Of a stretch of 64,000 nucleotides of DNA, positions 12,961 to 63,366 are shown one piece after another. The stretch covers positions 6,637,087-6,701,086 of the forward strand of contig OX442314.1 of assembly GCA_949358305.1 (NCBI GenBank), given 5' to 3'. Both the position numbers and the translations under genes were made by a program. Position 1 is the stretch's first letter. The number at the start of each line of letters is the position of its first letter. Under the pieces are notes generated by a model. That model did no database searches, was not told where the DNA came from, and saw nothing but the letters and a program-made list of their open reading frames with translations. The stretch is from Strigamia acuminata. Taxonomy: Eukaryota; Arthropoda; Chilopoda; Geophilomorpha; Linotaeniidae.

Positions 12961-13059
12961 GAATTTTTTAAAATTTAGTTTAAATAAGGAATTTATTAAA
13001 ATTTAGTTTAAATAAAGAATTTTTTAAAATTTAGTTTCATTATTTTTTCAGAATTAATC

Positions 13060-28099: not shown

Positions 28100-28216
28100 C
28101 GCGCTCCTCGCTGTCGCGCTCCTCGCTGTCGCGCTCCTCGCTGTCGCGCTCCTCGCTGTCGCGCTCCTCGCTGTCGCGCTCCTCGCTGTCGCGCTCCTCG
28201 CTGTCGCGCTCCTCGC
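28100..28216 (-). repeat. 15-bp coding minisatellite in Copia-1 spacer
   Basis: Nearly eight perfect copies of CGCGCTCCTCGCTGT (plus strand), encoding RQRGA repeats in the integrase-RT spacer. Perfect copies in an otherwise decayed gene imply recent expansion. Confidence 0.9.
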
Positions 28217-28755
28217 AGTGCCTGCTCTCTAATTCTTGTTGAGTGTCGCACCCCTCGCTGTTGCAAATTCGCCTCTATTCCGTCTACGCGAGCTTGGTTG
28301 TTTGCTGCCAGAACTTCCTTGGTGGTGCCTGGCCTCCGTCCTCCCCTCCGAGCAGGCAACTGTTCCGGTACTAGAGCCACAATAGATGGGTCCGGTTCGT
28401 CCATGTCTACATCTAAATCTATCGGTTCTTCGGATTCATCCGTCCGGTCAAGGTAAGTATCTCCCAGTCGTGACTCTTCAAAAACTACATCACACGATTC
28501 TGTGATTTTCCCTGTGTCTCGCATAAATACTCTATAAGCTTTAAGTTTAGTCGAGTAACCCACTAGTATGCCTTCTCTGGTTTTGTTTTTCAACTTGTTT
28601 TGTTGAAATTTTGGCTCTAACACGTGAGCCACGCATCCAAAGCGTCTTAAGTACTGTAGCTGACGTTGGGTATTCTCCCCTTCCAACGTTCGTAAGGCGT
28701 CTTGCCGTGTGTACTCGTTTTGCATCTGTTGCGTAAATGAGCAGCTGTCAATAAG

Positions 28756-29159
28756 GCTTTTTACTTACCGTTGGGTGGCGCCACTACGCGCATGCGCGTA
28801 GCGCAAATGAGGGGCAAAAACCAAAACAAGACAATAGAAACAGATCAAAATTCTATTTATTAATTTATTTTTTCAACATTTAAAAAAAAAATTTTTCCAG
28901 TTACTTCGGAAAACCCATGTTGCATTCATTTTAATTTCAAATTTAATTTTTTTTTTTTTTGATTTTTTTTTTTTTTTTTAATAATTGAAATTAACATCGG
29001 TTTTCCGAAGTAACTGGAAAATTTTTTTTTAAAATGTTGAAAAAATAAATTAATAAACAGATTTTTAGTCGTGTTGCTGTGGTGTTGTTGTGGTTTTTGC
29101 CCTACATTCGCGCTACGCGCATGCGCTTGGAGCGCCGCCCAACGATAAATAAAAAGCCT
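28756..29159. mobile_element. Foldback MITE (404 bp) inside Copia-1 integrase, TA target
   Basis: Long inverted arms start AGGCTTTTTA at 28756 and end TAAAAAGCCT at 29159, with TA on each side (28754-28755, 29160-29161). The arms contain GCGCATGCGC and further inward a long A/T stem with AGTTACTTCGGAAAAC and its complement. It interrupts the integrase frame of Copia-1. TA duplication fits a Tc1/mariner-type source. No ORF. Confidence 0.85.
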
Positions 29160-31298
29160 TATATGGCTTCGCCCCAGAACTTCTGTGGCAACTTCGAGTC
29201 CACTAATAAAGTTCGCATCGCTTCTGTCACAGTTCTATTCATTCGTTCTGCAACCGCGTTGCTTTCAGGTGAGTATGAGGTGGTCAATTCGTGTAGAATC
29301 CCTTTCTGAGTGAAGTATTGTCCCAAACTGTCGTTCAAAAACTCCCCGCCATTGTCCGACCGTATGCGTTTCACGAGTCGTCCCATCTGCAGTTCAATAT
29401 GCGTCAAGAAGTCTTTAATCGCGGTCCCAGCCTCACTTTTAGTACTCAATACCCTCAAAAATACCATTCTGCTACAGTCATCAACCATAGTCAGTACATA
29501 ACGTGCTCCCCCTAATGTGGGTACGGGCATCGGCCCCATCAAATCAACATGAATCAACTCCATTATTTCTTGGGATTGTTGATATATAACGGCACGTCGT
29601 GGAACCCTTGTCATTTTTCCTTTCGCGCATTCCAGACAAGTCTCATCTGGCAAATTGTCATCCCACTTCAAGCCTTTTACTAAATTTTGGCTTTTCATGT
29701 CTTCCAGATTTTTGAAATTTGGATGCCCCAATCTTTGATGCCATAAAGTTCGTGTCGCGCATTGTGTCACGCACGCTTCCTCGTTATCACGCTGCATATG
29801 AGCGTTTTCGTCGCTGAGTGTCCCAACCATGTCAAACATGAACTTGTCGTCCACACGTTGTGCCCTCATCACGTGATTCCCATCTTTATCTTGCACGTTG
29901 GCGCACTGCCACGTAAATGTCACAGTCAACCCTGCATCGACCATCTTGGGAACAGATAGTAAATTTGTCTGTAGTGTCGGGATATATAGAACATTGTTCA
30001 AACGTAACGTGTTCCCCGAAACATCTTCCGTGACGCGCATTTGCCCCCGTCCTGGTGACTTCGCTTCCGCCTTACCACTTGCCAAACCGACATCTTGTGG
30101 ATATTGTTCAAAAGATTCAAAATCTTCCTTGTGTGAAACCATATGGCTTGTTGCCCCTGAATCCAAAAGCTAACTTTCACATTCATCCTTCGTCGCCTCC
30201 TCGTTCCACCGCTCAACATCTCGACTAATTGGCAAAACTATTGCCCCACACGAGTATTCTCGTGGTTTGGTTGTCGGTCGTACTTCGCTTCGTGCTGAAG
30301 ACTCAGCTGTTCTATTTCCGCCGCGTCCTTTGTTCGGTGTTCTCGTATTTGTCCCAATTCCGCGTGAATGCGCGCTTCCCCTCGTTGCATCATTCGTTTT
30401 ACTCTTGGACCAGCAGTCCCGGGCGTAATGCCCAATCTTGTGGCAATTATAACATTCTACATTGCATTTCCCCTTTGGTCGTTCCCATTTCCATCGTGAC
30501 TTTTTTTCTTTACACGCTGTCTTTCCTCTTTAAATCTCAATGCGGTTCGAGCTTCACCCAAAGCCAGGTCATTGCTTTGTCCCTCAAAAATTCGCACATT
30601 GTGCTCAAACTCAACTCGCAGTCCTCGTGCTACGTAACTTAGCATTTCCTGATTGCTAAATATTTTCCCAAGTTCCGCTGCTTTGGTCTTTATTGCCTCC
30701 GCACGATTGATGTAAGTTTCAACCGTTTCTTTTTCGTTCATCTTCACCTGCGCTAATTCTATGCCGCATTTGACCACTTCAAAATCATTTTTCGGTTCCT
30801 TGTGAGTCTCAATCGTTTCCCACAGCTTTTTGGCGTTCGTTTCCATACTGTATCGCACTCCTTGCTCTCCTGAAAGTGACAGCATCAAGATCCCCATGGC
30901 CTCGTCATTTTTTCGCTCTCAATCCTCCCAAATGGCCCGCATCTGGCCGTAATTCGACTGTCCTAGTCGTTCTTTCTCCGGTTCGTCATTCACGATCACT
31001 GTCTTCCATAAGCCTTTCATCTTTAATACTGCACGCAATCTCATCTTCCACAGGAAATAATTCCTGTCGGTCAGTCTCTCAACCGTCGTTGATGAAGAAG
31101 AGACGTTCACGAACGATTCCGCCGTCGCCATCTCGTGTCGAAATTCCGTAGCAGACGACAGAAATAAACGGGAATTAATTTCACGGCAAATATTTTCAAA
31201 AACTTAGTGACACTATAAACTTGCGGTTTTCTGGCCCGTTTTTTTGCTTCAGCAGGTCAATTTGGCTTCAGTAATCAAACCATCCATCTGCTACCACT

Positions 31299-31993: not shown

Positions 31994-34004
31994 TTATTGC
32001 TTCTTTTGGAAGCAAATCGACACGATCTTAATCTTATACCAATTATAACTGTTTAAAATACAAATGTAGAGAGACAGTAATGACATTCCCAAACCCAATC
32101 CTACAATACTACCGACATCGCTTAACAATTGAGACATTGGATAAGCTTCTTGCTCTTCAATACTCTCCAACAATGTATCAGGGAATTCAATATCTATCAT
32201 TGTCAAATTACTACCTAAAAATTTAATTCCATGGCAAAAATATTTGTAAAAACTATTTTCACATGGTAGTTTACATTTGCATTGTTTCTGATTTGAATCA
32301 AAATTCTTTTTAGATACATGAAATGAGCGAAAGTAGATTCCTTTGTTGTGTTACAAACTGGCAGATTCGGTCTCCAGAAATAAGGCAATCTGAAACAAAC
32401 AGTAGAAGCTTAAAATTTACATACAACCATGCACATTATTTATTTGCTGAATAAGATAAATGTGTTCATACTGTGTATGTTCTGTATGTTACATACACAA
32501 TGCAATTAGAATTGAGATGTGAAAAAAGTGAAATATTTAAACTGACACACCTGCAGGTAATATTTTGAACTAAATTGTTTCTCATGCAAGCTTTTTTACA
32601 CTTGAAATAAGCACTTTTGTCCTTTTCACATGGATTGCGCTTTGTATTTCTTCGAATAGTCTATTTCATAAAAACAAGGTTGTTAAGTGTAAGCATTTAT
32701 ATAATTAGTTTAATTTTCTACCTTAAATTCTTTAAGTGTTACCATGTTCAACCAATGATAGTTTACAGCTAACGGTGCCAGAATATTAACTTCTTCTTCC
32801 AGATTATTTGGGAAAAACTAAACACAGTTATAATTCAAAAGTAGGTGAATATGTATGTACAGACTTATCCATAAATCACAAAATGTACAGGTTTGGGCAA
32901 TAATACAGTAAACCAAAAGTTTGAATAAAATTTATCTTTATCAACAAAAAATCTCACAGATTGTGTTCACAAATCCGAAGTAAACGTGAGATGATCAATT
33001 CACCAAGAAAATAAATTGCAAGGCCGCTTGACATGCAAAGACTAATATGACCCCTTCCCCCCCCCCCCAACTTTTTGGCAACTTTTTGGGTGTGAAAAAA
33101 GGTTTAAGCTGATTTGGTACACAAGCTTTGATTGCACTTGCACAGAAATTTTCTGGCAAGCAGAAAGTTATACTTTCTACAGCAGTGACGGTGGACGGAA
33201 AAATTCTATTCTTTCTGGAATAGCAAAATTTATTTCCTATTCATTTTTAATTGCTGGAAATTTTTTTGGGTTGATGTTCGAATGGCGAATGACCCAATAG
33301 CGAAAATGTGCAGATTTGTCATTCAAGATGAATTTTATTGTTTCCAATGATAAAATTTGACATTTTTGCCATTGACCATTGCATTTGAACATGATGTACG
33401 ATTATTGCTGTCATTAAACATTCTTTCTAATTCATTTAATATGTATAATATTTTATGAAATAAGTAATCAATGCAAAAGTTTACAGAGGGGCTTAGTAGT
33501 TACTACGCCGCAACGTAGAACTGTAGTCTGTCCAAAAAGTTTACAATGTTCTCCTTTTTTAAAAATGTCACAAATTAGTTTAGCACTGCGTTTTAGTGAT
33601 TTTGTATTCTGATAAAACTATTCACACCATTTAATAGTGTGAAGTTTGAGCTTCCTTGAAAAGTAATTTACAGCGTAGTACCAAAATATTTTTATTTATT
33701 TACCTTTCTTTTAGCATTGTTAGGCCTAATATTTGGCTTAATACTGCTAAATAACAACTGGAATTAGAAAATTGTCTGCGCAGAATGGGATGCGCAGTAC
33801 GAATTTAGTATCAAGATGCCGGGCGCAACCTGTGGTTAAATTAAGGTTTGCCAACATTTGGAGTTGCACCAGTCGCTATTTCCGTTGCTGGTGCTGGTTT
33901 ACATTTCCGCCAAAGAGGAGTGTTCTCTTAGGACGTAGTTCTACGTCAAAAGAGTTTTTATTTAATAACAAATGGTGTTGTAGTACAGTACGGTACCTTT
34001 AGAT

Positions 34005-34260
34005 CAGGGGTCGGCAAGTAATTTTAAGTGGGGTCCGGAAAAATTGAAAATTTTTATCGAGGTCCAGAAAAAGACAACAAAATAAAACAAAAAGAACACA
34101 AAAAACATCAAAAACACCCAAAAAAAACCAAAAAAACCAAAAAAACACCAAAAAACACCAAAAATACCAAAAAAATATATAATAAAAAATATCTGGCGGT
34201 CCAAGTTTCGACCTTCCGCGGTCCGGATCCGGACCGCGGGCCGCCAGTTGCCGACCGCTG
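34005..34260. mobile_element. hAT MITE, 8-bp TSD CTTTAGAT
   Basis: Ends CAGGGGTCGGCAA and TTGCCGACCGCTG (13-bp inverted repeat, one mismatch), with CTTTAGAT at 33997-34004 and 34261-34268. CAG ends and an 8-bp duplication are diagnostic of hAT. The interior is A-rich; its frames are artefacts. It lies in intron 7 of pseudogene C. Confidence 0.9.
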
Positions 34261-34477
34261 CTTTAGATGTTGGTCACATAGTTTCGAAGGAAATAGATTA
34301 TGAAATGTAATAAAAAGATAAGAGTTTGGGTCTTTTGATTGTTCTGAAAAACATTGGAAAGGTGTGAATAAATTTTCAGATGCATCTGCTAGAAATGATT
34401 TTTACTAGATAAATTATTCCAATCAAAAAATTAAATTATCACAAAAAAGTGAGTTCTGTGAGAATAACCAAATATTA

Positions 34478-34869
34478 GGTGCATTCAAGTTAAAATTCAA
34501 ATTTGACTTATCAATAATTCATGTAAGTCATTTGACTTAACTCCAGTGGGCGTGTCATCAACATTCTTAATACGTCCAAGTGCCTCCTAGTGACGTATTG
34601 GTGGCCGTAATACATAATATCCAACACACATGAATAATTAGGCCACTGGAATAAGTTATTCAAGAGGATGCCCCCAGTCAGTCAACCATGAAAAGAGGAA
34701 CCCAGTAAGAAACTGGTCGAGGAATGAAGAATTGAATTTGCTCATTACCTATCTGAACAGCCAAAGGCATGATTAGTAATTGCTGACATTTTAAGCACAA
34801 ATTCATGTTTGAATTATTAATAATTCAGATTATTATAAGTCAAATTTGGATTTTAACTTTGAATGCACC
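34478..34869. mobile_element. Foldback element, short form (392 bp), in intron 7 of gene C
   Basis: Inverted ends GGTGCATTCAAG... and ...CTTTGAATGCACC, with the arm continuing as AAATTTGACTTAT. Left flank is TA, right flank GA. A longer relative is at 47239-48998 in the same intron of gene D and in the same orientation relative to the gene. Confidence 0.8.
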
Positions 34870-37051
34870 GATTGTTAAAGTGTGAAATAATAGAAATTAA
34901 ATTGCTAATTTACTTATGTTTATCCGTGAACAATTGCCAAAAGGAAGTAGAAGAGGATGCTTTGATATGTTTAGCTCTGTTTTATATCCATACAATTTCT
35001 ACAAAAATAATGATTTTCAATGCCATTTGTTTTTAGGTAATATAAAATACTAGAATACCTCATTCTCAATATCAATGGTGTCATGGACACTGAGTGTTTT
35101 CCAAATATCTTCCAGTGACAATTTGTTGTTGAACAATTGCCAGGGCGATATTTCATTGCAAGTTTTGTTGGTCTGTTTCAGTAAGTGTGATCTGGCTTCG
35201 TCCATGGCATCATTTTGATTTTCACCACAGATCGTGACTGACTGATATTCGATGTAGCAGCGTTGATCTATTCTAACCATTGTTGTTATCAGTTCATCAA
35301 TGTAGTAGTTGATGCGAATACGCAACCAATATAAAGTGAATCCCGCAGTCACAAATACTAGCGCAAACTTAAACCTTTTTAAGACTTCATTTGTTATGGT
35401 TTGCTCTTTACTTGCAATGACTTTCTTCTTGCATATCTCGTACAGAGGACGAATCTTATCGACGGATGTATTTCGGTGAATGTTTGTTGCAACATAATAT
35501 AAATACCCAGTGAGTTCAGGTAACGAAATTAACGCTAGGCCAAAAAACAGGCCAAGATTGCCACCTAAATCCGACAGAAGAGCAATTGCGTCGTACGTGT
35601 ATCGTTCTTCATACACGCTAATTTTGTCATTAGAAATTGCTAGAGATACAGATACAGTGTTTTTATCATCTGCTGTGCCTATTTCAGTGAAAGATGTAAA
35701 GGTTATTTGATGACATGGACGTCGACAGAGACACACAGTAATGGGATTTGTGGTCTCAATCAACTGCTTTGCAGCACCGTAATGCATGTATATGTCCTTC
35801 GAACATTTGCAAAGTGGTAAATCGATCTTCATGAAAGGAAATCTTTAATAGAAGATTTGTAATCATTATTTTTTTATGTAGAACTACATCTTTCTCTGCA
35901 CTAAGCGGGCTGCAACAATTGGACAGGAATGACACGGGAATGGAAATGCAATTTTTTTTATTTCTTACCTGCATGGTAGCTGCTTAAATTTCTTCAATAG
36001 ACATCTCCGATAGCATTCTCTGTATTCCTCTTGACTAGAGCATTCATTTATTGGTGAATTCAGAAAAATGAACTAAAATGTTTGAGTAAAATAAGGTGAT
36101 TCGTAGGAATTTTCGGTCTTTGATAAAATTTTACTTTGTTATAACTCAAATAAACTTTTGTTGTTCCACCGGGATATTGTATTCCCACCCCGAAAATTTT
36201 TCCAAAATTGTAGAAACGAAAACCAACCTAAGGGCAAAGGAAAAAAAAGTAGACAACAACTATTTTTGCAATGTATTAAAATTACACCGTATTTCGATGC
36301 AGGGCATGTGTCATCATAACTTGTTTCTATTTTAACTGTTACGACTTGTCCAACAAAAGATTCGCTAGATGCCTTAGCTATATATCAATAAATAATAAAG
36401 TGCATTGAAGTTGATAGTGGTAAATGTTTGCTTATACATACGAAATTGAATTGATGAGCATAGTCCATGATAATTGATCATTTCTGTCAGAACAAATGTT
36501 TTGTTTGAATTAGAATATCCCTATGCAAAATAAAGAGATTTAAATAATTTTTTTTAACTCATTAAAAGTTATTGATTCCATCTTTTTACTTTTATTTTTA
36601 CGCTCACAACTTCTTTCGTCAAATTACTCGCTTCCCAAAGTTCCTCTAGATTGTAAGTTGGGATTGCCATTAGTGCGTTTAACTTGTTACTGCAGGCGGA
36701 ACGTGAAGGTTTGGATTTTGATTAAGTTTTATTCCAAAATCTCGACATTTCTTTTGTATTGCTACTACATATCAACAAAATCGATAGGACGACCTCTTCT
36801 GATCTACTCGTTACATCAACAGTCGTAGGATAACTTAAGTAATGCATTACCCTATCGTAAGTCTGATAAGTAAGCATGCATGTGCAAAATGAGAATAAAA
36901 GTAGCCAAAAGGTGTGACGCCTTGTCCAATGTTTTCTACTGTTTATGAAATCATCCAAACCAACTAAGCTGCATCGAAGTTTATTTGCATCATCCTTCAA
37001 CAATCGATGAATTGCTGGACGTAGTCACCTCACCAAATTATTATTTTGCAT

Positions 37052-39200: not shown

Positions 39201-41129
39201 TTAATACTCTTCATATCGAATTCTTCCTGGTGGTTTTCCATTTCGATTTGAATACAGCCTCCGAGTTCTCGAAGATTGTCGCGGAGGCGCTCGTACGTTT
39301 TTGATCTGGAGAGTTTCGACTTCCCCTTGTTCAGTCTCGTTCTCGACTTCATCATTGATCTTGATTTCGACTTCCCCTTGTTCCGTCTCGTTCTCGAAAA
39401 TTTCTACTTCGTTCTCGTTCTCGGAAATTTCAACTTCGTTCTCGTTCTCGGAAATTTCGGCTTCGCTCTCGTTCTCGGAAATTTCGGCTTCGCTCTCGTT
39501 CTCGGAAATTTTGACTTCGTTCTCGTTCTTGTCTAGTTCCACACTTGATTCCTCACTCGGCTGCAAAATCATATATTGCGCCATTTCCATTAATGTTTGA
39601 CTTATCTGTTCTGCAAAGTCGTTTTTCAGTTTCTTCAAAATTGATTCGTATTCGAGCTTCTCGTGCCATTCGCGAATTTTTACGTTCTCGGTTCTAGTCT
39701 TCTTGACTTCCGCAGCTGTTTTCTTGTTTTCGGCTCTCGTCTTCTTGACTTCCGCAGCTGTTTTCTTGTTCTCGGTTCTCGTCTTCTTGACTTCCGCAGC
39801 TGTTTTCTTGTTCTCGGTTCTTGTCTTCTTGACTTCCGTACTTGCTTTTTCGGTCTTCATGTTCCCGGTTCTGACTTCGATTTCCATTGCGGTCGCAGCA
39901 TCCTCGGTCTTGTCGACGATGTAATATAATCCGTTTCTTTTTTCGGCGGTGAATACGATTTCTCCCTTCGGGCTTATTATTTCTGCTGATTTATTGTCAA
40001 AAATCACCTTGTGTCCCCGCTCTGTGATCTTTCCGACTGACATCAAATTCGTTCGCAAATCCCGTACCAAGAGAGTCTCCGTCAAATCCAACTTCATATT
40101 TCCGTCTCCAGTTTTGACGACGATTTTCGCGGTTCCTTTTCCGTCGATGTTCGTACTCGCTTTACTGGCCAAATTCAATTTCTGGTTCTTCAGGAATTCG
40201 ATCGTTGAAAATGTTGAATTGCTCGAGCACATGTGGGAACTTGCGCCGCTGTCCAAACACCAATTTCTCGGCCGTGACTTCTCGCATTTCAATGCTGTCT
40301 CGTTTTGTTCGCAGAAAAATAATTCGTACTTGGACTTCTCGGCTCTCGATGCGCTTTCCTTCTTGCTTTTACTTCGGCAATCGGCGATTTTGTGGCCGAT
40401 TTTTCCGCAACCGTGGCACTTGAACTTGAAAGTCGGCTTTTCATCAGAATCCGATTCATCGTCGCCGTTCTTCGGCTGCCTCCGTTTTTGGAACGATTTC
40501 TTGGCCAACATTGCGTCGGATACTTCTTCTTTATCTTTTTCTTGAGAAATTGCTGCGGCTATAATTTTAGCTTTTAGCGCTTCCAGCGTCGGCAATGTGT
40601 CTCGCGATTCCATCGTGATCTTGAACGTATCGAATGATTTCGGCAAACTTTGCAACAGCAGCGTCCCAGTAAGTGTCGGATGGATTTCCATATCCATGTC
40701 GAGTAGCTTATCAACCGCTTCAAAAAATCCCTTCAGATAGTCACGCACGTTTTCGTTCTCAGCCATTTTGTTTCCGCAAATTTGTTTCAGCAACATGCCC
40801 ATATTTGCCGGTCCTTTCGCTTCGTAAATTTCGTCCAATTTTCTCCATAATTCGTTTGAGGTTTTACAGTTTTTCAACAATCGAATCTCCGACTGTTTTA
40901 CGTGTAGCAAAATATCGTATCTCGTGTTTCTGTCTCTCACGTCCCAATTTTCGGCGGCTTTCTTGGTGTTATTGTTGCTTGGATCAACTTCTGGTCGCTT
41001 CAATGTTCCGTCCGCGTACTTTAAGAGATCGTTCTTCCCCAAAATTGCTTCCATTTGGACTTTCCAGGCATCGTAGTTTTCTTTCCCCAGTGGTTCGATT
41101 CTAGCCGAAATTCCGCCTGCATTCGCCAT
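39201..41129 (-). CDS. Copia-3 Gag-protease protein, 642 aa
   Basis: Starts at the first ATG (41129) after the leader. Residues 1-200 are a copia-type Gag (YDAWKVQMEAIL, LWRKLDEIY, VRDYLKGFFEAVD). A CCHC knuckle spans C238-C251 (CHGCGKIGHKIADC). The aspartic protease active site is DSG at 293-295 (CLDSGASSHM). After a trace of the pre-integrase motif (REWHEKL) there is no integrase or RT. Instead come a ~14-residue repeat KKTRTENKKTAAEV, about four copies, and an acidic repeat of the SENESEAEI type. The C-terminus is basic. In the copia family, Gag builds the particle and the protease matures it. The repeats replace the missing pol and make the frame look like a filament protein. Confidence 0.88.
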   Translation of the reverse strand: MANAGGISARIEPLGKENYDAWKVQMEAILGKNDLLKYADGTLKRPEVDPSNNNTKKAAENWDVRDRNTRYDILLHVKQSEIRLLKNCKTSNELWRKLDEIYEAKGPANMGMLLKQICGNKMAENENVRDYLKGFFEAVDKLLDMDMEIHPTLTGTLLLQSLPKSFDTFKITMESRDTLPTLEALKAKIIAAAISQEKDKEEVSDAMLAKKSFQKRRQPKNGDDESDSDEKPTFKFKCHGCGKIGHKIADCRSKSKKESASRAEKSKYELFFCEQNETALKCEKSRPRNWCLDSGASSHMCSSNSTFSTIEFLKNQKLNLASKASTNIDGKGTAKIVVKTGDGNMKLDLTETLLVRDLRTNLMSVGKITERGHKVIFDNKSAEIISPKGEIVFTAEKRNGLYYIVDKTEDAATAMEIEVRTGNMKTEKASTEVKKTRTENKKTAAEVKKTRTENKKTAAEVKKTRAENKKTAAEVKKTRTENVKIREWHEKLEYESILKKLKNDFAEQISQTLMEMAQYMILQPSEESSVELDKNENEVKISENESEAEISENESEAEISENENEVEISENENEVEIFENETEQGEVEIKINDEVENETEQGEVETLQIKNVRAPPRQSSRTRRLYSNRNGKPPGRIRYEEY

Positions 41130-41214
41130 CGTTTCTGATTTTGTTTCTCGAAACGGTTCGTATCAAAAACGTTTTGACTTCTTCGATCGTTTCGTCCCAA
41201 ATCTCGATATTATC

Positions 41215-45059: not shown

Positions 45060-48000
45060 ATGGAGAATAATAGTTTGATGTGGAGATACAGAAGAGGGAA
45101 AAGTCAACTGCGTCTGACAATTCACCAATTAATGAAGGATGATGCCAACAAACCCAACTGCGATATAATTGGATTGGAAGATTTCGTAAACAGTAGGAAA
45201 CGTTGGAGGAGCAAACATCACATCCTTTGGCTGCTTTTATTCACATTTTGCACGTGCATGCTCACATATCAGACATACGACAGAATAATGCATTACTTCA
45301 GTTATCCTACGGCTGTTGATGTAACGAGTAGATCAGAAAATATTACTTTACCAGACTTAATGGTCTATAGTACAGACACAAAGAAAATGAATAGGCTTTG
45401 GGAAGAAACTCATATAGCAAATAAAAAAATATCAAAATCCATTTCATGTGCTATCATGCTTAAAAAACTAATGACAATTGAAAACCCAACTTACGATATG
45501 GATACACTTTGGAAAGCAACTAACAATACTGATGACATCGACAGTGTAAAAATGAAAGTAAAAATTAAAATTAAAAAACAAACAATAGAGAAATTCAGTT
45601 AAAAATCACAATTTAAACTATATTTGCATAGGGATATTCAAATACTTCTGTTGTTCAGACGGAAACTGACAGTGAATTAGGAATATGCTCAACATTTCGA
45701 TTTGGTAACTACAAACAAGCATTAATCATTTCCTTCATTGTTACAATAATATTATTCATTGACATAGCTGAAGCTTCTAGCAAATCATTTGTCGGAAAAT
45801 TACTGACAGTGAATTTAAAAAAAAATTACGACTGGACATGCAAAGTGCCTTATTATTGGGTAACTTAATTAAATTACAATAGCAATTGCTACATTAATTT
45901 TTTCCTCTTTGCCCTTAGTTTTACCTGATATTCAATAATGTTGGAAATAACTATTTTGTATCAGTGATGTATCCTGGTTCAACATCTAAAATAAATTTAA
46001 GTTGTAACAAAGTAAAGTTTTACGTAAAAACTTGAAATTCCTGAGCAACACTTGTTAATGTTTACAATTGTAGTTTATATTGCAAAATTCACCGATCAAT
46101 TCATGCTCTAACGAAGACGAATACAGAGAATGCTATCGGAATTGCTTACTTAACAAATTTAAAAAGGAAAAATGCAGGTAAGAACATGTGGAAAAAATGC
46201 TTCACAATTAAACAGCTAATTAAATATATTCTGTACAAGATTTCCGTTCATGAAGTTGGATTTGCCACTTTGCAAATTAGGAAATGATGCAGATAACATG
46301 TATCACATTGTTAGGCACTTAATTAAACATACAGAACCAATTACCCATTGCCAATGTCGACGTCCTTGTCAACATTTAACTTTTACACCATATACTGATT
46401 TAGGCATAGCTAAAAATAATAAAACGATGAGTTTAACATTAGCAATAACTAATGAGAAGGTTACTGTTTATGAAGAACGGTACACATATGATGTTATTGC
46501 CTTACTATCCGATTTAGGAGGAAATCTGGGCCTGTTTCTTGGACTATCCGTAATCTCATTACCGCACATCATTTGGTATTTATATTATGTTGCATCAAAC
46601 ATTCGCCGAAAAAGATCCGTCAATAAGATTAGGCGTCTGTATGAAATGTGCAAAAACAAAGTCGATGAAACTGAAGAGCAAACCAAAATACATACAGTCT
46701 TAGAAAAGTTGAAGTTAATATTCGTATTAGTTGTTGCAGGATTCACTTTGTATTGCCTGCACATTCGTGTCAATTACTACGTCGATGAACCGGGCACAAC
46801 AATCGTTCGAATAAGCCAACGACGCTACACCGAATTTCCTTCTGTCACAATTTGTAGTGAAAAAAGAAATGAAGAAATGCGCACAGCTCGATTGGACTTA
46901 CTGAAACAACCCAATAAAACCTGTGGCAACATATCACCCTGGCAATTGTTCAACAGCAAATTGTCGTTGCAAAACATCTGGAAATCGCTTAGTATCGCCC
47001 AAGTTTTACATGTTGGCTGTGTTGAGAAAAAGGATGTAACTATAATAAGTGATATTCCTCAAATAAAAACCAAACAATTAAAGCTTTATGTTTACAGGTA
47101 CCATCAATTAATTTTATTTCACTTCCATTTGGCAATTGTTCACAAATAAGAAATGGTTATATATAAAATTAATTTCTGATTTTAGTTAATTAATGGTTCT
47201 ATTCAAAGTCTACTTTTGAATTCTAGGATTTTTCAATAGGTGCATTCAAAGTCAAATGAATTATTTGACTGAAATGACTGAAATGACTGATTTGACTGAT
47301 TTGACTTAACAGTCACAGGAAATGATGCAATTTACATCATCAGATGATAATCGAAATTTGAAAATTCATAATCTGCTTATTTTCATGATTTTTTACAAGC
47401 TTTTCAAGACTTTTCACTCAGTTTTCGATGATTTTTGACGATTTTTGACGATTTTTACACAGTTTTTGACGATTTTTACCGAGGCTTTCACAATTTTTAC
47501 CCAGTTTGTCACGATTTTTACCCTTTTCACCCAGTTTTTCATGATTTTTACCCTTTTCACCCAGTTTTTCATGATTTTTCACAATTTTTACTTTGTTTTT
47601 CACATTACATAATTTTTACCCAGTTTTTCATGATTTTACACGATTTTTACCGGTTTTTCATTATTTTACACGATTTTTACCCAATTTTTCACGATTTTAC
47701 ATGATTTTTATCGTTTTTCACGATTTTACACGATATTTACCGAGTTTTTCACAATTTTTACCTTGTTTTTCACGATTTTTTACAATTTTCACCCAGTTTT
47801 TCATGATTTTTCACAATTTTTACCCTGTTTTTCACTGCCCAGTGGAAATGCTCAAAACATAAATTACATGCAAACGAGGTTCAATATTTGCAAGGTTAGT
47901 AGCGCTCTTATAATTAGGTTAGTAAAATGCTAACACAACACTAAGCTAGTTTACAATAATATTCAATGAATAAATTCAAAAAAAATTTCAAAAAAAAATT

Positions 48001-50777
48001 CAAAAATTCAAATAAATCAAGAAAATCTTCAAAAATGATGTTTTCAAGAAGTTGAAAGGTTTGTGAAGTCATCTGGTGCACTTCACGTGCTTTTCCTTGA
48101 AAATCTGGTCCAAAATATCCATAATTCTACTGGTTGAAATATCCGAAACAATCCACACACTTCACGTGTATTTTTCTGGTCAAAATGTCCGAAATTCGCA
48201 ATTTTCGCTGGTCTATGGTGTCCAAATCGATTCCCACACTTCACGTGTGTTTTCCTCTCGAAATTTGGGTCCAAAAAACGTCCAAAAACATGCAAAACGT
48301 TCAAAAATGCCTCGCACGAGTCCAAATGGTACAAATCGTCGTCTGGGCGCATTCTGTGCTGCACGGCACGTCCTTCGCGAACGTTTCGGCGACGTTCCTC
48401 GTTGTTCGCGAACGTCCGTGCGACGTTCCTCGTTGTCCGCGAACGTCCGTGCGACGTTCCTCGTCGATTAGCGGTCAACGCCGCGAACGTGTCGGAAATG
48501 TGCGGCCCTGGCAATCGTACGATCGGCGTGCGCTCGAAAACATAAATTTGTGTTTAAAAATGTCAGCAATTACTAACCTTGCTTTTGCCTAAGTATGGCT
48601 GTTCAGCTAGGTAATGAGCACTGCTCATTTCTTGAGTCCTTGACCAGTTTCTTGCTGGATTCCTCTTTTCATGATAGACTGACTGGGGGCATCCATCTTG
48701 AATGGCTTATTCCAGTGGCCAAATAATTCATGTGCTCAGCCATGATTGGAGGAATTTTTCCATCAGCCACTTATTGATAAGTCATGATTGGAGTGACTTA
48801 TCAATAGGCCACTTATTGCAATTGAATTATCTTTTCAGTGATGTAAATTACATCATTTCCTGTGACTGGTAAGATATTTCAGTCACATCAGCCAAATAAT
48901 TGTTCACTTTGTATGGAATTTAGCCAAATGACTTATATGAATTATTGATAATTCAGATTATGATAAGTCAAATTTGGATTTTAACTTTGAATGCACCTAT
49001 TGTCTTTTTTTTTCTGGAATTATTTAACTGTAAAAATTGCTTACTGCAGACGAATTAGAAAATTAATTCTGACCTTCTCACTTTCTTCCAGATAAAACAA
49101 GCACAAAAACCACTAGACTTGACATTATTTTCACTATAGGTCCAACTCCTGCAGAAGCTTGTGATCCGCAGATAAAGGTGTGTAAAAAAAATATTTTCAC
49201 TCGAAATCACATGTAATTTTGCAACCAAAATGGAATGTTATAAATTGACAGTCTCAATGTCTTTTTAAGCAGCATTCTTAAATAAGATAACGAGAAAGTC
49301 TATTTATTCATGCAGAATGAAGCAAAAAAGTTCTTTAGATAATCCAAATCTAAAAGAAGTTAGAAAAATGGTTTGTGTTTGGTTCAGACACACATGTATT
49401 CCTAATTGTAAATAGAAAAAATAGAAAAATAGTTTTTGTGCACATAACTTACAGTTTTAATTATAAATATAAATATTTTGGATTATATTAACACGCAGCT
49501 AATCATAAATAATCGGGAAGAGGAAGTTAACATTTTGGCACCCTTGACCGTAAACCATCCATGTTACTACTTTGTAGTACTTCGAGAGTTTCAGGTAGAA
49601 AATGAAATAAATTATAGAAATGCTCCTACTAAGATTTCTTTTGCGAAATAGATCATACGAAGAAATACAAAGCTTGATCCGTGTGAAGAGAACAAAAGTG
49701 CTTATCTCAAGTGTAAAAGAGCTTGCTGGCATAACAATGTACTTCGAGGTGTTAAGTGCAGGTATACTTCACATTTCTATTCATGCATCAGCTCCAATTT
49801 TATCACATCTATTTTTATTTTTCGCCGTTCTAAAGATTGACTGATTAGCCAATCCGCAGTCAGTAATTGCACTAGCATTAAACACACACAAACTTGCAAG
49901 CATGTTTTGACATGACAGCGATTAAAGATTCATTTGCTGCATCACCAGATTGAATCTATTCGAAAAACACCTAACCCTTTTCAGCAGATAAACTGCAACC
50001 AGTTGTGACCGTCTGGCCACCGTGGCTACCTACGGTGATGCGTGTCACTCCACACACTGCTCTCTGGTCCCTGGCCACCCCTCTTGCGAGGTATACTGGC
50101 CTAGTGGGAAAGAAAGGAGCTGAGTGGTGGAGAGAAGAGACTGTGAGTCAGAGAGAGAGAGAGTTTGGACAGCACAGGATGAGGAAGTGTGCTCTTGAGG
50201 TCTCTCAGCCAGCCTGGGCAGTGCAGTGCCCCAGTTGACTCTGCTCGTCTCCATTATTACGTGAAGGTCCGGTCCCACCCACGGCGATCAATCCCCAGAT
50301 TGCTGTGAGAGCGAAGACCCGTCACAGCTAGTCTTCAGTTATGTCAATTCTAGAAGAAGCATCTTTGACCAATCTCCTCTTTGTTTCAGATTACCATACA
50401 TGGGAAAACCTAATTTGCCAGTTTGTAACACTACAAGTGTCGTAACTACTGCTCATTTCACGCATTTAAGCAACCTTGACTCGAATCAAAAACAATGCAA
50501 ATGTAAACAACCTTGCAAACATATTTTTTACAAAAGTACTTTTCGGAAGAGTCCTTACCTAAATGATGGAGTTACAGTTCTATTGTTGCAATTTGCTGAT
50601 AGCTCTGTAGAGATTGTAGAAGAGAAACAAGCATATCCAATATCTCAATTCTTAAGCGATTTCGGTAGCATTGTAGGACTGGGTTTGGGAATGTCACTTC
50701 TCTCTTTGTACGATTGGATTTTAAAAACTCTTAATTGGTATCGGAATCAAGATGTGGGTTGTAGATTTGCACTCTAA
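45060..50777 (+). CDS. DEG/ENaC gene D: intact two-unit (four-TM) channel, 797 aa
   Basis: Eleven exons, all GT-AG: 45060-45557, 45632-45704, 45768-45859, 45919-46011, 46074-46177, 46240-47035, 47098-47155, 49092-49177, 49499-49594, 49652-49761, 50390-50777 (2394 nt). TM1 is at about 54-72 and the LPDLMV motif at 97-102. Unit 1 cysteines include ECYRNC and CQCRRPC (324-330). TM2 is about 373-403 with filter GLS 388-390. A basic/acidic linker spans 404-443, TM3 444-464, canonical FPSVTIC 486-492, a second cysteine set ending CKCKQPC 705-711, and TM4 about 752-782 with filter GMS 769-771. A 15-residue tail follows. Both units therefore have cytosolic ends and extracellular cysteine domains. HG motif is IG. 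Intron 7 (1.9 kb) and intron 10 (628 bp) contain transposons; other introns are mostly about 60 bp. Start is the first in-frame ATG. Confidence 0.92.
47239..48998. mobile_element. Foldback element, long form (1.76 kb), in intron 7 of gene D
   Basis: Ends GGTGCATTCAAAG and CTTTGAATGCACC flanked by TA on both sides (47237-47238, 48999-49000). The interior at about 48595-48725 is the complement of the interior of the short form at 34478-34869. Extra contents are a TTTTTCACGATTTTTACC array (47405-47830), three ~80-bp units with ACTTCACGTG (48080-48260), and a GC-rich ~31-bp repeat (48360-48470). Gene B has no such insertion at the same intron position. Confidence 0.85.
48360..48470. repeat. GC-rich tandem repeat, ~31-bp unit, 3 copies
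   Basis: Unit CGCGAACGTCCGTGCGACG plus TTCCTCGTTGTC. The TTCGCGAA palindrome appears in the first copy. Base composition is sharply different from the AT-rich host intron. Confidence 0.85.
50004..50326 (+). mobile_element. LTR-B family solo LTR in intron 10 of gene D, internally deleted
   Basis: Starts TGTGACCGTCTGGCCACC and ends CCGTCACA, 323 bp. No matching target duplication is visible. The corresponding intron of gene B (20858-20561) is 298 bp and lacks it. Confidence 0.75.
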
Positions 50778-55675: not shown

Positions 55676-55782
55676 TTGGTTGCCATATTGAAAAAGTGTG
55701 TTTGGATTGCACTTCAACTTGTTTTGTTTAAATTGTATGTGCATGCCCACTTCAACTAAATGTTACATCGAGACCAATTAAA

Positions 55783-55982
55783 NNNNNNNNNNNNNNNNNN
55801 NNNNNNNNNNNNNNNNNNNNNNNNNNNNNNNNNNNNNNNNNNNNNNNNNNNNNNNNNNNNNNNNNNNNNNNNNNNNNNNNNNNNNNNNNNNNNNNNNNNN
55901 NNNNNNNNNNNNNNNNNNNNNNNNNNNNNNNNNNNNNNNNNNNNNNNNNNNNNNNNNNNNNNNNNNNNNNNNNNNNNNNNNN
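55783..55982. other. Assembly gap, 200 N
   Basis: Exactly 200 N. The 14 bases before the gap (TCGAGACCAATTAA) are repeated immediately after it, so the two contig ends probably overlap or the gap spans a repeat. Confidence 0.98.
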
Positions 55983-55997
55983 TCGAGACCAATTAAA

Positions 55998-56988: not shown

Positions 56989-59900
56989 TCAATTATTCAA
57001 TAACTTGAGATCTTCCAAGCATTTCTGAAGTTTTGGTCCGGTTAAAGCCTTCGTCAGGAAATCTGCTTGCATGCGTTCGCTCGCGATATGTTTAACCTTT
57101 ATCCCGTTTCTTTGTAACTCCTCCTTAGTGAAGTGAAAACGTCTGTTCATCAACTTAGTACGCATTCGTTGCGTGGCTCCTTCCAATATCTGTATCGCAC
57201 CGGAGTTATCATTATAAATAACTTTGTTTTGCGTGTCCATTGTTTTTCCGCACAATTCTAATAAAAGGAACTCAGTCCAGATTAATTCTTGGAGTGCTTC
57301 AGCTATTGCATTGAGCTCGCTTTCGGTTGCGGAGAGCGCAACAGTCCTTTGCTTGGTGCTTTTCCAGTTTAAAAGGCTGTCACCGTGTTTAATTACATAT
57401 CCAGTGAAGGATTTCGCATCTGAACTGGTGTCCCACGATGCGTCAGCGTAGCAATGTACCTCTCCGACCTTCTTGCGATAGAATAATCCTTGATCTGCTG
57501 TTCCTTTGATGTATCGGAAAACTCTTTTTATGGCTTGTAAATGCATGGCTCGCGGATCTTTGTTGTACTGTGACAACGCGCTCACAGCGTAGCTAACGTC
57601 AGGGCGGGTCCCAGTTGCGAGATACATCATGGATCCTACCATTTCCTGGTAGAATCGCGCGTCGACTTTGGGACTATCTTCATAAATATCCAAGTTTTGG
57701 TTCGGATCAAGTGGGGTAACCGCCGCATTACAGTCAGTTAATCCATACTTCTGCAATATTTTTCTGATATACTTGTGTTGTGAGAGAAATATTCCTTCTT
57801 TGCTTTGATTTACCTCCAAACCAAGTATGAAAGTAAGTTCTCCGAGATGTACAAGTTCAATTTTCTTGGACAGCTGTGCCATGACTTGTTTTTTGAACTC
57901 GGGGGTTGAACTTAGGGTGACTGTGTCATCCACGTATAGCCCTAAATAGATAAAATCCTTGTTTTTTCTCAAAAGAAATAAGCACGGGTCACATAGTGAC
58001 TGCTTGAACCCCAATTTTAAGAGTTCCTTTCGCATCTTTTTGAACCAGCAGCGCCCACTTTGCTTAAGACCGTAGATACTCTTTAATAAATGGCAAACTT
58101 TCCCTTTTTCATTGGTTGTGTATCCTTGTGGTGCAAGCATATAAATTGTCTCTTCGAGTTTTCCATGAAGATACGCTGTCTTCACGTCATCTTGCTCAAT
58201 TTCTATGCCCATTTTGGCTCCAATATTGATTAGCATGCGCAAAGTCTCCATCCGTATGACGGGTGCGTAGGTTTCATGGTAATCTGTTCCTGGCCTTTGC
58301 GCATAACCAGCGGCTACGAGTCGGGCTTTATATAGCGGGTTTTTACCATGTTTGTCGGTTTTTACGCGATATACCCATATCGATTTAATGGGCTTTGCTC
58401 CCTTTGGTAAATCAACTTCTTCCCATACTTCGTGCTTCGCCATGGATCCCATTTCCTCATTCATAGCTTGCTCCCATTGAGCACGTTGAGGCGAACTCAT
58501 GGCTTCTTTGTAAGATGAGGGAACAATGATTTCTGCTCTATAAGCCGTATGCTGGGGTTTTGGTCCTTTGTAGTCCTTTTTCCTTTTCGAGCGTCTCAAC
58601 CCTGGCGTGGTTGCGGGGTTTGGTTCCGACAATTTTCGTTTTCTTTCTTCTTCCGCCCTTTTAGAACGACGTAATCCGGATGGGCCCGCTTGATTTTCAG
58701 AAATTGTCTGTTTCCGTTGTTGCAAAACCTCCTTTGTCGTTCCTTTTGGACGACCCCGTTTAGGTTTTTGTGACATCTCTTCTGCCGGTGTTGACGACGA
58801 TTCTGACTCCTCGTAATCCTCCAACTCTGATTCATCTTGTTCTTGCTCTTCAGAGCTCGAGGCGAAGAAGTCCGGCGCCGACCCAAAAGACTCGTCGTCA
58901 CCATTCTCATCGTCTGTCTCTTGATATGCTGGGACATGTTGTTTGTGTTCAAGTGGAGGTCCAATATTTAATTCGACTCCATCTTCCTCTTTATTGCGTA
59001 ACAATAATCCAAACCCTAATTTGTCTTCTTCAAATCGTACATCACGTACCTCCATGATGCGTTCCTTTTCAGGTATAAATATTCGATAAGCTTTTCGATT
59101 TATCGAATATCCGACAAAAATTCCCTTTTGTGTTTTTGAACCCAACTTTGTTTGTTGAAACTTTGGTTTTAGCACATGTGCAACGCATCCAAAGCGCCTC
59201 AAATGATCAACCGATGGCTTTCGGTTGGTCCATTTCTCTTCTGGAGATAATCCATGTACAGAAGTCATACAATGATTTCGCGCATGAACGGCCGCATGCA
59301 CAGCTTCACCCCAAAACTTTTTGGGTAATTGTGATGCAATCAGCATTGTCCTGGCCGCCTCCATAATGGTGCGGTTTGCACGTTCAGATATGCCGTTAGA
59401 CTGGGCTGCATATGCCGTGGTGAATTCGTGCTTAATACCTTTCATTTTAAAGAATGCGGCTAGCGATGATGCGATAAATTCGCCCCCGTTATCGCTTCGT
59501 ACCCGTTTTAAACGCAATCCCGTTTGTACTTCTTGTTGAGTAACAAAACTTTGAAATACCTCGGAAGTTTGTCCTTTCGTTTGCAAAATCTTCACGAAAA
59601 TCTTACGGCTAGTATCGTCAACGATGGTCAACACATAACTTCCATCCGAATATGTTGGCGGATTAATTGCCTCAACCAAGTCCAGGTGCAGCAATTCTAA
59701 AATTCGTGACGATTGCTTTCCTTGCACAGCCGTAAATGGCTTGGTGGTTGTTTTTCCCTTAATACACGCCTCGCATGTGTTGGGAATTTCGAATTTCATA
59801 TTTAGTCCCCTGACAATGCTTTGTTTCGACATCTGCATCAATGTCTTGAAATTGACGTGTGCCAAACGCTGGTGCCAATTGTCTTGTGTGACAACGTTTG

Positions 59901-61158
59901 CCTGTTCCGCATGCTTGCGACCTTCTTTCAATACGAAACAGTCCCCCTTACGGTTGGCTTCCATCACTACTTCATTTTTGTCAGTGAGTATCAATGCCTT
60001 TTGTTTTGTAAACAGTACCTGGCAGCCGCTATCTACTATCTTCGGGACAGACAGCAAATGTGTCTTCAATTTAGGCACGTACAAAACATTTTTCAGTTTG
60101 ATGCCCGCACGTTCAGTCCGTATCTCCATATTGCCTTTGCCATCAGCTTGTAATTTATTCCCGATGCCTGCGGTGCTAATCTGCTGGATCCCTTCGTCAA
60201 ATTGCCGGAACTTGCTTCTGTCCGACGTCATGTGGCTGGACGCGCCGGAATCTAACAGCCATTCAAATGAGATATTTGTCGTCTCAATTTCTTCTTTCTG
60301 AGCGACATGAAAAACGAAATGAAATTCTGGCTCGTCCGTGGCGACAGCAACTGTTTCCTTTTTAACGCTGCCTCGCCCTCGTCCGCCTTGCTTTGACTTC
60401 GTGTCGTCACTGCGATTCTTCTCGCTTTTCGGTCGCCAACAATCACGGGCATAGTGGCCTGGTTTGTCACAATTAAAACATTTAAAGTTTTCCTTTTTCT
60501 TGGCTTTGTATGCACTTTCGGATGCATTTTCTCTACCGCCATCATGATTATTTCTGCGTAATTCGCGTTCTTCGTGCTTGAGTTGTGCACGGACCTCGTC
60601 CAATGTTAACGTCTTATTCGCACTCAACGCTTTCTTAGTTACGTTGTATTCTGTTTTCAGCCCGTGCAATATGTACGACGACATTTCTCGATCACTAAGA
60701 ATCTTGCCCAACTCAGCGCTTTTGTTTGCTATCGCCTCTGCCCGATCCATATAAGTGTCGATATCCTCCGACTTCATCATTCGCAATTGCGCCAACTCGA
60801 ACGTGCAATCAATTTTTTGGTCCTCTATGCGACCGGCCATGTGGGTTTCTATCTTTTTCCATAGCTCTTTTGCGATTTCCTCGCGACTGTATCGCATGGC
60901 TTGCTGCGTCGAAAGAGTTAACGCTATAACTGCTAATGCCTGCGCGTTTTTCTCGTCCCACGCTTGCCACTTGACTAAATCATCAGCATAACCGGGCGCT
61001 CCTACTACTGGTTTGGCAGGACCATCATTAACAATTGCGTCTTCCCATATTTTCTTGACGCGCAAAATAGCTCGTACTTTCATTCGCCACAGAAAGTAAT
61101 TGCTGTTCGTGAGTTTTTCCACTGTTGCGACGTTGCCTATGCCTGTGTCCGTCGCCAT
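56989..61158 (-). CDS. Copia-2 Gag-Pol polyprotein, 1389 aa
   Basis: I take the ATG at 61158 (MATDTG) rather than an upstream TTG/ATG at 61227, because Copia-1 Gag starts at the equivalent MAT. Domains in order: copia Gag; CCHC knuckle 227-240; protease DSG 303-305; WHQRLAH pre-integrase zinc motif from 428; integrase with D493, D556 and E592 (D,D-35-E); serine/acid- and lysine-rich spacer; RT with YVDD 1075-1078; RNase H with YADASWD (D1239), E1279 and D1317. All catalytic residues are present and there is no stop or frameshift. In copia elements the single frame makes both Gag and Pol, with Gag excess usually from splicing. Confidence 0.95.
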   Translation of the reverse strand: MATDTGIGNVATVEKLTNSNYFLWRMKVRAILRVKKIWEDAIVNDGPAKPVVGAPGYADDLVKWQAWDEKNAQALAVIALTLSTQQAMRYSREEIAKELWKKIETHMAGRIEDQKIDCTFELAQLRMMKSEDIDTYMDRAEAIANKSAELGKILSDREMSSYILHGLKTEYNVTKKALSANKTLTLDEVRAQLKHEERELRRNNHDGGRENASESAYKAKKKENFKCFNCDKPGHYARDCWRPKSEKNRSDDTKSKQGGRGRGSVKKETVAVATDEPEFHFVFHVAQKEEIETTNISFEWLLDSGASSHMTSDRSKFRQFDEGIQQISTAGIGNKLQADGKGNMEIRTERAGIKLKNVLYVPKLKTHLLSVPKIVDSGCQVLFTKQKALILTDKNEVVMEANRKGDCFVLKEGRKHAEQANVVTQDNWHQRLAHVNFKTLMQMSKQSIVRGLNMKFEIPNTCEACIKGKTTTKPFTAVQGKQSSRILELLHLDLVEAINPPTYSDGSYVLTIVDDTSRKIFVKILQTKGQTSEVFQSFVTQQEVQTGLRLKRVRSDNGGEFIASSLAAFFKMKGIKHEFTTAYAAQSNGISERANRTIMEAARTMLIASQLPKKFWGEAVHAAVHARNHCMTSVHGLSPEEKWTNRKPSVDHLRRFGCVAHVLKPKFQQTKLGSKTQKGIFVGYSINRKAYRIFIPEKERIMEVRDVRFEEDKLGFGLLLRNKEEDGVELNIGPPLEHKQHVPAYQETDDENGDDESFGSAPDFFASSSEEQEQDESELEDYEESESSSTPAEEMSQKPKRGRPKGTTKEVLQQRKQTISENQAGPSGLRRSKRAEEERKRKLSEPNPATTPGLRRSKRKKDYKGPKPQHTAYRAEIIVPSSYKEAMSSPQRAQWEQAMNEEMGSMAKHEVWEEVDLPKGAKPIKSIWVYRVKTDKHGKNPLYKARLVAAGYAQRPGTDYHETYAPVIRMETLRMLINIGAKMGIEIEQDDVKTAYLHGKLEETIYMLAPQGYTTNEKGKVCHLLKSIYGLKQSGRCWFKKMRKELLKLGFKQSLCDPCLFLLRKNKDFIYLGLYVDDTVTLSSTPEFKKQVMAQLSKKIELVHLGELTFILGLEVNQSKEGIFLSQHKYIRKILQKYGLTDCNAAVTPLDPNQNLDIYEDSPKVDARFYQEMVGSMMYLATGTRPDVSYAVSALSQYNKDPRAMHLQAIKRVFRYIKGTADQGLFYRKKVGEVHCYADASWDTSSDAKSFTGYVIKHGDSLLNWKSTKQRTVALSATESELNAIAEALQELIWTEFLLLELCGKTMDTQNKVIYNDNSGAIQILEGATQRMRTKLMNRRFHFTKEELQRNGIKVKHIASERMQADFLTKALTGPKLQKCLEDLKLLNN

Positions 61159-61680
61159 TTTGGAAATAACCTTCAATTTGAACAGGCGAATCAACAAACT
61201 TATTTGATAATAATTACGACTCAACACTTATCTGCTCTTGTGCCAAATTAATCCAGGCACAAGAAATTATTGCGAATGCTCCACGTTGCTATTTCTGCTT
61301 TTCCGTCCGTATTTATTCACCGCCGAAAGCTGCACGTCGCTCGTACGTTTTCCCGACGTGTCAATCTCTGCTCCGGCGTGCGTTTAGGCCTCGTGCACCG
61401 CTAGCGGAACAATATATCAATGTTTGAAATGTAAATGGGCTTATAATGCTTTATAGCCGCCCGAATTTCGAAACAACTTAGCTGTAATGGTGCCTTTTAT
61501 CGTCCCAGGCACAACTACTTCCACTTAGCGTTGCCGAGTCATTCTCTATTCCTCGCCGTCGACCGTAATGGCTGCGCCGTCCCGTCGTCGGTCACGTTGA
61601 CGATACGTTCGCGTTTGCAAGTCGTATTGAATCCAATTCAGCGTGTACCGCAGGGCAGCACAACCGCCCACTGCTACCAA

Positions 61681-62969: not shown

Positions 62970-63366
62970 TTAGGGCTTCATTATGAACGGAAATTGGCAA
63001 CCCTTTTGCTGACGGTACCAATTAACGATGTTTAAAATCCAAGGGTATAGAGACATCAATGACATTCCCAAACCTAATCCTACAATGCTGCCCACATCGC
63101 TTATCAATTGCGATACTGGATAAGCTTGTTTTTCTTCTGTGGTCTCGATTAAACTATCAGCAAATCTAACACCTATGCCTGTCTTAAACTCAAACGGATA
63201 TTCACTCCCTTGTAAAATGGTTTGGTAATAAATAATTTCACAAGGTTGTTTACATTTGCAATGTTTGTGATTTGAGTTATAATTGTTTAAGTACATAAAA
63301 TGAGCGGTTGTGACGTCCATTGTAGTGTTGCAAGCCGGTAAGATAGGTTTTGCCATATATGGTAAT
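62970..63366 (-). CDS. DEG/ENaC gene E, terminal exon (unit 2 pore)
   Basis: Matches exon 11 of B and D: acceptor TTGTTTCAG then LPYMAKPILPACNTT, the CKCKQPC motif, TEEKQAYPVSQLISDVG and a TM4 with GLGLGMS, ending in a short tail and stop at 62970. Fully open (132 codons). Exon 10, expected to the right, was not found up to 64000, so intron 10 is either longer than in B (298 bp) or the exon is lost. The gene continues beyond the window. Confidence 0.85.

Follow-up and report, generated by a model that had tools for sequence, protein, structure and literature searches.

DEG/ENaC channels are trimers of two-helix subunits, and a gene that appears to encode two such subunits in one chain raises the question of how the pair fits a threefold pore. 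Such a gene, here called gene D, lies in a stretch of 64,000 nucleotides (hereafter the window) from the centipede Strigamia acuminata, corresponding to C1:6637087-6701086 in a 237.5-Mb assembly of 157 contigs. As read from the genomic sequence, gene D combines two units with a fused exon and a repeated series of intron phases, is present in many copies, and shares its join with proteins of Strigamia maritima. On balance, though with limited confidence, we favour the reading that single genes of this kind carry two DEG/ENaC units in one frame, the predicted four-helix protein of which would fill two of the three places in a trimeric sensory cation channel.

Gene D and its two channel units

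Gene D was rebuilt from the raw sequence using a splice check, comparison with the copies A, B and C described below, and the Pfam ASC profile (PF00858). The spliced gene contains 11 exons on the forward strand, with GT-AG borders at 10/10 introns and no internal stops, and encodes 797 amino acids comprising two full DEG/ENaC units, in agreement with what had originally been predicted for this locus. Exon 1 (45060-45557) encodes the N-terminus, TM1 and the start of ectodomain 1, and positions 4-77 of the ASC profile were matched by 45060-45602 (6.4e-10); its donor site (after 45557), consistent with the splice check, was chosen via gene B, since gene B offers no alternative GT. Exon 2 (45632-45704), bordered by GT-AG, has copies in genes B (98.6% identical) and A (97.3%), exon 3 (45768-45859) in A and B, exon 4 (45919-46011) in A, B and C, and the cysteine-rich exon 5 (46074-46177) in B and C. 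Exon 6 (46240-47035), identified by two ASC stretches and by its genome-wide matches, encodes the end of ectodomain 1, TM2 with a GLS filter, a linker, TM3, the motif FPSVTIC and the start of ectodomain 2. It is followed by exon 7 (47098-47155; copies in B and C), in which the phase of exon 2 appears again, exon 8 (49092-49177; copy in B), exons 9 (49499-49594) and 10 (49652-49761), both with copies in B and C, and exon 11 (50390-50777), which encodes the end of ectodomain 2, TM4 with a GMS filter and the stop, and matches profile positions 326-450 (6.5e-15). Intron 7 (47156-49091) is nearly 2 kb long and contains short repeats of the TTTTACC type; intron 7 of gene B is shorter than 200 bases.

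Intron phases at the ends of exons 1-5 (0,1,0,0,2) recur in the same series at the ends of exons 6-10, indicating that in exon 6 the last exon of unit 1 is fused to the first exon of unit 2. A tandem duplication, with deletion of the sequence separating the last exon of copy 1 from the first exon of copy 2, would produce just this pattern. The rebuilt gene upholds the earlier claims that TM2, linker and TM3 lie in exon 6 uninterrupted by an intron or a stop and that the two units cannot be separated into two genes, the join being inside one exon and in one frame. When the exon was shuffled 20000 times, 0/20000 shuffled sequences stayed open.

Analysed alone, unit 1 matched ASC profile positions 4-453 of 455 (2.9e-23) and unit 2 positions 26-450 (3.1e-24). 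The whole protein gave two ASC stretches, as did exon 6 by itself, where the better one was the profile's end; a search of proteins B and D, for which the original prediction anticipated two matches each, returned two stretches in both. By profile alignment each unit contains two helices, with 12 cysteines between them in unit 1 and 14 in unit 2. Four transmembrane helices had been proposed for gene D: using 19-residue hydropathy means and a cut-off of 1.6, TM2 (1.78) and TM3 (2.16) were clear, whereas TM1 (1.38) and TM4 (1.51) fell below the cut-off and were therefore placed from the ASC profile alignment. TM1 of gene B reached 1.79. An AlphaFold2 model of exon 6 based on six sequences had a pLDDT of 37 and was unusable.

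Characteristic DEG/ENaC motifs include His-Gly before the first helix and FPxxTxC after it. In gene D, FPSVTIC is found at residue 486 in unit 2, and unit 1 reads LPDLMVY at that place. The G/S-x-S selectivity filter is present in both units, as GLS (residue 378) in unit 1 and GMS (residue 759) in unit 2, with exceptions among the copies such as GLC (unit 1 of locus L028, unit 2 of L070) and GLA (gene C). His-Gly was absent from gene D, where unit 1 reads IIGL and unit 2 has no such motif; because His-Gly was taken as a usual trait rather than a defining one, gene D was kept as a divergent member of the family. Unit 2 has neither an N-terminus before its first helix nor a start exon of its own.

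A genome-wide family and the age of the fusion

The other copies in the window are on the reverse strand. Gene B (20185-23785) is intact according to a splice model, which comprises 11 exons (23785-23288, 23213-23141, 23077-22986, 22926-22834, 22771-22668, 22593-21801, 21738-21681, 21504-21419, 21121-21026, 20968-20859 and 20560-20185) and encodes 792 amino acids with the two ASC stretches. Gene C (31994-37025) has the same layout, with a fused exon at 35842-35059 and a last-exon remnant at 32371-31994. That genes B and C share exon 6 had been predicted and was borne out, both exons being open, and the label of pseudogene given to C is justified by two stops in its first exon. Copies A and E, both cut by the edges of the window, add to those predicted. 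Exons 1-4 of gene A (1382-2327) are present, with no exon 5 in place before the left edge, and a fused exon on gene A's strand lies about 12 kb past that edge (L021, C1:6624734-6625501, reverse strand); given these two observations, gene A may have been split by an insertion. Of gene E the window contains the last exon (62970-63366), and a fused exon on the same strand (L033) is found about 10 kb beyond the right edge.

Mobile DNA is abundant in the channel cluster. Long open frames that by eye resemble Copia-type retrotransposon polyproteins occupy 26953-28764, 29159-30918, 39201-41162 and 56989-61227 (-), and open frames built of short repeats (KFSYKFF..., RAPRC...) were seen at 12508-12978 and 28037-28456. 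A run of 200 N at about 55780-55985 represents an assembly gap or a masked stretch.

A search of the whole genome with exon 6, in which scoring was confined to the best candidates, yielded at least 145 matches. In 128 of them a single frame runs from the TM2 filter through to the motif that follows TM3, and 123 of these are free of stops, distributed over six contigs (83 in C1, 29 in C6, 6 in C8, 2 each in C3 and C4, and 1 in C32); 22/145 matches are partial or hold a stop. The family, to which the three genes of the original prediction belong, comprises at least 123 open fused exons and is common to this genome and that of Strigamia maritima. For the 84 open fused exons closest to gene D, the order of the end exons was assessed within 10 kb on either side, among the first-exon and last-exon matches listed (150 each). 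On the same strand, a first exon was found upstream in 72/84 cases, a last exon downstream in 68/84 and both in 61/84, against 2/84, 2/84 and 0/84 in an opposite-strand control; in reversed order on the same strand, where tandem neighbours count, the figures were 17/84, 23/84 and 6/84. One or both end exons were missing within 10 kb of 23/84 open fused exons.

Thirty loci (L009-L038, including D as L009 and B as L018) were fetched, and within 1.5 kb of their fused exons the other exons, the small ones included, flanked them in the right order, exon 1 being present in 22/30, exon 7 in 28/30 and exon 11 in 12/30. Gene models were obtained for 19/30 loci, of which 12 joined without stops to exon 8 or further (9 of them to exon 10), 6 through exon 6 or 7, and 1 through exon 2 only, exon 3 being unresolved there. 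Base-by-base reading of distant copies (25-33% identity to D) covered three loci, L069 and L071 in C6 and L070 in C1 at 16.4 Mb, all about 30% identical to D. Each contains a fused exon and a last exon with the pore helix; L070 and L071 also have the first exon and final stop, and the L069 stretch ends before the stop.

Protein searches with D and with two-unit and one-unit alignments retrieved Strigamia maritima proteins together with one weak snail match in the first search and one weak spider match in the wider ones, in a word-filtered tool with which absence from other taxa proves nothing. A search for other doubled proteins had been suggested along with the original prediction, and three Strigamia maritima orthologues were found to resemble D in having TM2, linker and TM3 in one protein: T1JEH2 (P0001, 45% identical to D), T1IYF0 (P0013) and T1JEG4 (P0014). 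They differ from D in being uncharacterised automatic gene models with incomplete or garbled ends. In a tree of units, the unit 1s of D, B and P0001 formed one clade (100/100) and their unit 2s another (100/100). A tree of last exons covering all three groups of doubles, unrooted and with several long branches, placed 13 unit 1s in one clade (95/81) and 10 unit 2s in another (95/88), with single-unit genes between. These separate clades suggest that the fusion happened once, likely before this species and Strigamia maritima parted.

Single-unit genes are also numerous in the genome (e.g. L039-L062 and L072). Large tandem arrays of single-unit DEG/ENaC genes (L039-L068), on the branch of Strigamia maritima P0002-P0012, were seen in C10 (2.05-2.1, 2.8-3.0 and 4.6-5.0 Mb), C3 (10.8-10.9 Mb) and C1 (45 Mb). 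On that branch, the Strigamia maritima models P0002 (T1IU28) and P0003 (T1IZL2) overlap in register with 76% identity, as if three units were contained in one gene. Among the loci of this branch read here, the TM2 motif was found in 29/30 and a stop after the motif in 29/29, located within about 46 residues of the start of the filter in 26 and after a longer tail in L053, L056 and L057. Three-unit channels were rejected as unproven on this ground. By their sequence the loci look like single-unit genes in arrays, and the P0002 and P0003 database models, with two to three units in one protein, are likely joined neighbours.

Constraint on helices, ectodomains and linker

Between genes B and D, some 76.5 silent and 223.5 replacement differences were counted (about 300 in all), among which about 18 stops would be expected without constraint and 0 were observed. 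The dN/dS ratio between them was 0.68 for unit 1 (bootstrap 0.47-1.06) and 0.81 for unit 2 (0.57-1.18), with values of 1.04 and 0.97 for ectodomains 1 and 2, respectively. Given ectodomain ratios of about 1 and unit intervals reaching above 1, constraint on the ectodomains is weak. In the pore helices, with few sites each, the ratio was 0.10 for TM2, 0.0 for TM3 and 0.12 for TM4. Many copies were compared over 276/406 pairs, those with a silent difference of 0.05-0.5, giving 0.66 for the end of ectodomain 1, 0.13 for TM2, 0.52 for the linker, 0.41 for TM3 and 0.40 for the start of ectodomain 2. These values are a description and not a test, because the pairs share ancestry; they are clearer than the whole-unit selection test between B and D. 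The distance from the filter to FPxxTxC was 94 residues in 29/29 copies measured (the partial L034 was left out) and in gene C. In Strigamia maritima it was 94 in P0001 and P0014 and 93 in P0013, and in the distant loci 92 in L069 and L071 (C6) and 100 in L070.

Proposed assembly of the predicted channel

Comparison with solved structures identified BRTNaC1 (broad-range thermal receptor 1 of Scolopendra; PDB 8YMR-8YMX) as the best match both to D (1.7e-17) and to unit 2 alone (9.8e-12). BRTNaC1 shares with the units of gene D a short chain, the RLPYM motif and a comparable arrangement of cysteines, and is unlike D in consisting of one unit of 431 residues, in being a trimer and in keeping GG in the pore helix. 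The second solved match (1e-14) was PDPNaC1 from the Scolopendra antenna (PDB 9JF7), whose pore helix, D-I-G-G-x-L-G-L-F-L-G-x-S, is much like that of unit 1. PDPNaC1 is described as a proton-gated homotrimer of one-unit subunits with two helices each, gated at Asp372 and Gly375 (PMC12714832); unlike in this channel, Gly375 is replaced in unit 2 of D. BRTNaC1 is likewise called trimeric (PMC12804983). The idea of two pores in one polypeptide, put forward in the original prediction, is not supported, since the closest solved relatives are trimers of two-helix subunits and each unit can accordingly supply no more than one third of a pore.

The gate residues of PDPNaC1 were then compared with those of the doubled family. 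Unit 1 has the Asp and the Gly in 32/32 sequences (29 exon-6 peptides and L069-L071), with DxGGNLGL kept. In the ten unit 2 sequences read (D, B, C, E, L026-L028 and L069-L071), the Asp is kept in 10/10 and the second glycine of the gate pair is replaced in 10/10, by Ser in 8 and Asn in 2, so that GS (8) or GN/AN (2) stands in place of GG; the GxS end of the helix is found in 9/10. Because their gate residues differ, units 1 and 2 are not spare copies of each other.

Engineered ASIC chains are a counterpart of such a layout: like D, they join DEG/ENaC subunits tail to head through a cytoplasmic linker, and they are reported to work as channels; unlike D, they are man-made and contain three units with 19-residue linkers (PMC10329638). 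No description of a natural two-unit DEG/ENaC protein, nor of the doubling in the Strigamia maritima models, was found in the open-licence literature, consistent with the original remark that no described natural member of this kind was known. A word find in the Strigamia genome paper (PMC4244043) gave no mention of ENaC, degenerin, pickpocket or sodium channel. The DEG/ENaC family itself is known, and the new elements are the doubling, how old it is and on what scale it occurs. Channel subunits that are naturally doubled within one chain are familiar from two-pore-domain K+ channels and from the two-pore channels TPC; there, unlike here, doubling divides a fourfold pore evenly, and two does not divide three.

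In the arrangement that we favour, the linker and the two termini of the chain would be cytoplasmic, so that joining the units would need no extra helix. Since both units are predicted to begin and finish on the cytoplasmic side, the linker of about 40 residues could tether adjacent positions of a single trimer, and either a single-unit subunit or one unit from another double chain would occupy the remaining position. This 2+1 step is the weakest, because a two-unit chain does not divide into a trimer. Unit 1 would contribute a standard gate and filter and unit 2 a changed pore helix that lacks the gate glycine, which would make the pore lop-sided; without that glycine, unit 2 might not conduct. 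Such double subunits would constrain the assembly of three-subunit channels, and as ready-made natural concatemers their genes could serve work on stoichiometry.

Several other readings of the same features were weighed. Three chains could assemble into a single double-pored complex, in which one trimer is made of the unit 1s and another of the unit 2s. This arrangement has the merit of integer stoichiometry (3 x 2 = 6) and would account for the separate evolution of unit 1s and unit 2s and for the difference between their pore helices, but a pore made purely of unit 2, lacking the gate glycine in 10/10 sequences, would be unusual, and we know of no double-barrelled DEG/ENaC channel; we regard it as unlikely. 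The pore helices also bear on the idea that the channel is a homotrimer of unit 1 alone, with unit 2 tethered to it in a regulatory or non-conducting role. The constancy of DxGGNLGL in unit 1, the GS or GN/AN of all ten unit 2 sequences and the missing N-terminus of unit 2 would fit such a passenger, yet TM4 shows about the same conservation as TM2 when B and D are compared (dN/dS 0.12 versus 0.10), and the upper-gate Asp and, in 9/10, the GxS end are retained in unit 2; this reading is slightly less probable than the double trimer.

Ordinary single subunits would result if the linker were cleaved or if some transcripts ended after exon 6. The 40-residue linker of D is basic (10 K/R versus 6 D/E) and predicted to be cytoplasmic, but 123/145 matches are free of stops between TM2 and TM3, no 2A-type NPGP motif was found in 29 copies, linker length is invariant in 29/29, and a separate start exon for unit 2 is missing; we hold this to be about as improbable as the passenger, or slightly more so. 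An artefact, in which adjoining single genes or pseudogenes were wrongly joined, looks true of the Strigamia maritima P0002 and P0003 models, whose 29/29 related loci have the TM2 motif and then a stop, and gene C is a real pseudogene. In gene D, however, a single exon holds the join, which stays open at 123 sites across six contigs and recurs in three Strigamia maritima models, and an artefact is already very improbable.

Returning to the paired subunit in a 2+1 trimer, the family is large and arranged in tandem, its ectodomains change fast and its pore helices are conserved, and in this it resembles a repertoire of receptors. Its likely use, judging from this evolutionary pattern and from the antennal relatives BRTNaC1 and PDPNaC1, would be chemical, acid or heat sensing. 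Tentatively, and with less confidence than in the arrangement of the single protein, one old fusion may have given rise to a centipede superfamily of covalently paired DEG/ENaC receptors, with more than 100 genes in one genome and a 2+1 pore with two unlike gates, serving as a main sensory repertoire and providing the first natural double chain in a threefold pore. Centipedes may in that case sense through a very large ion-channel family, in addition to the heat and acid channels known from their antennae, and a natural, abundant and long-kept double subunit would break the one-unit rule, the question being how the pair fits the threefold pore. In the unit tree, unit 1 joined BRTNaC1 and PDPNaC1 at 93/89 on long branches, a grouping not repeated in the last-exon tree. 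A separate last exon (L006, C6:3525127-3525474), some 0.2 Mb away from the double-gene array on C6, grouped with BRTNaC1 (97/90) in the last-exon tree.
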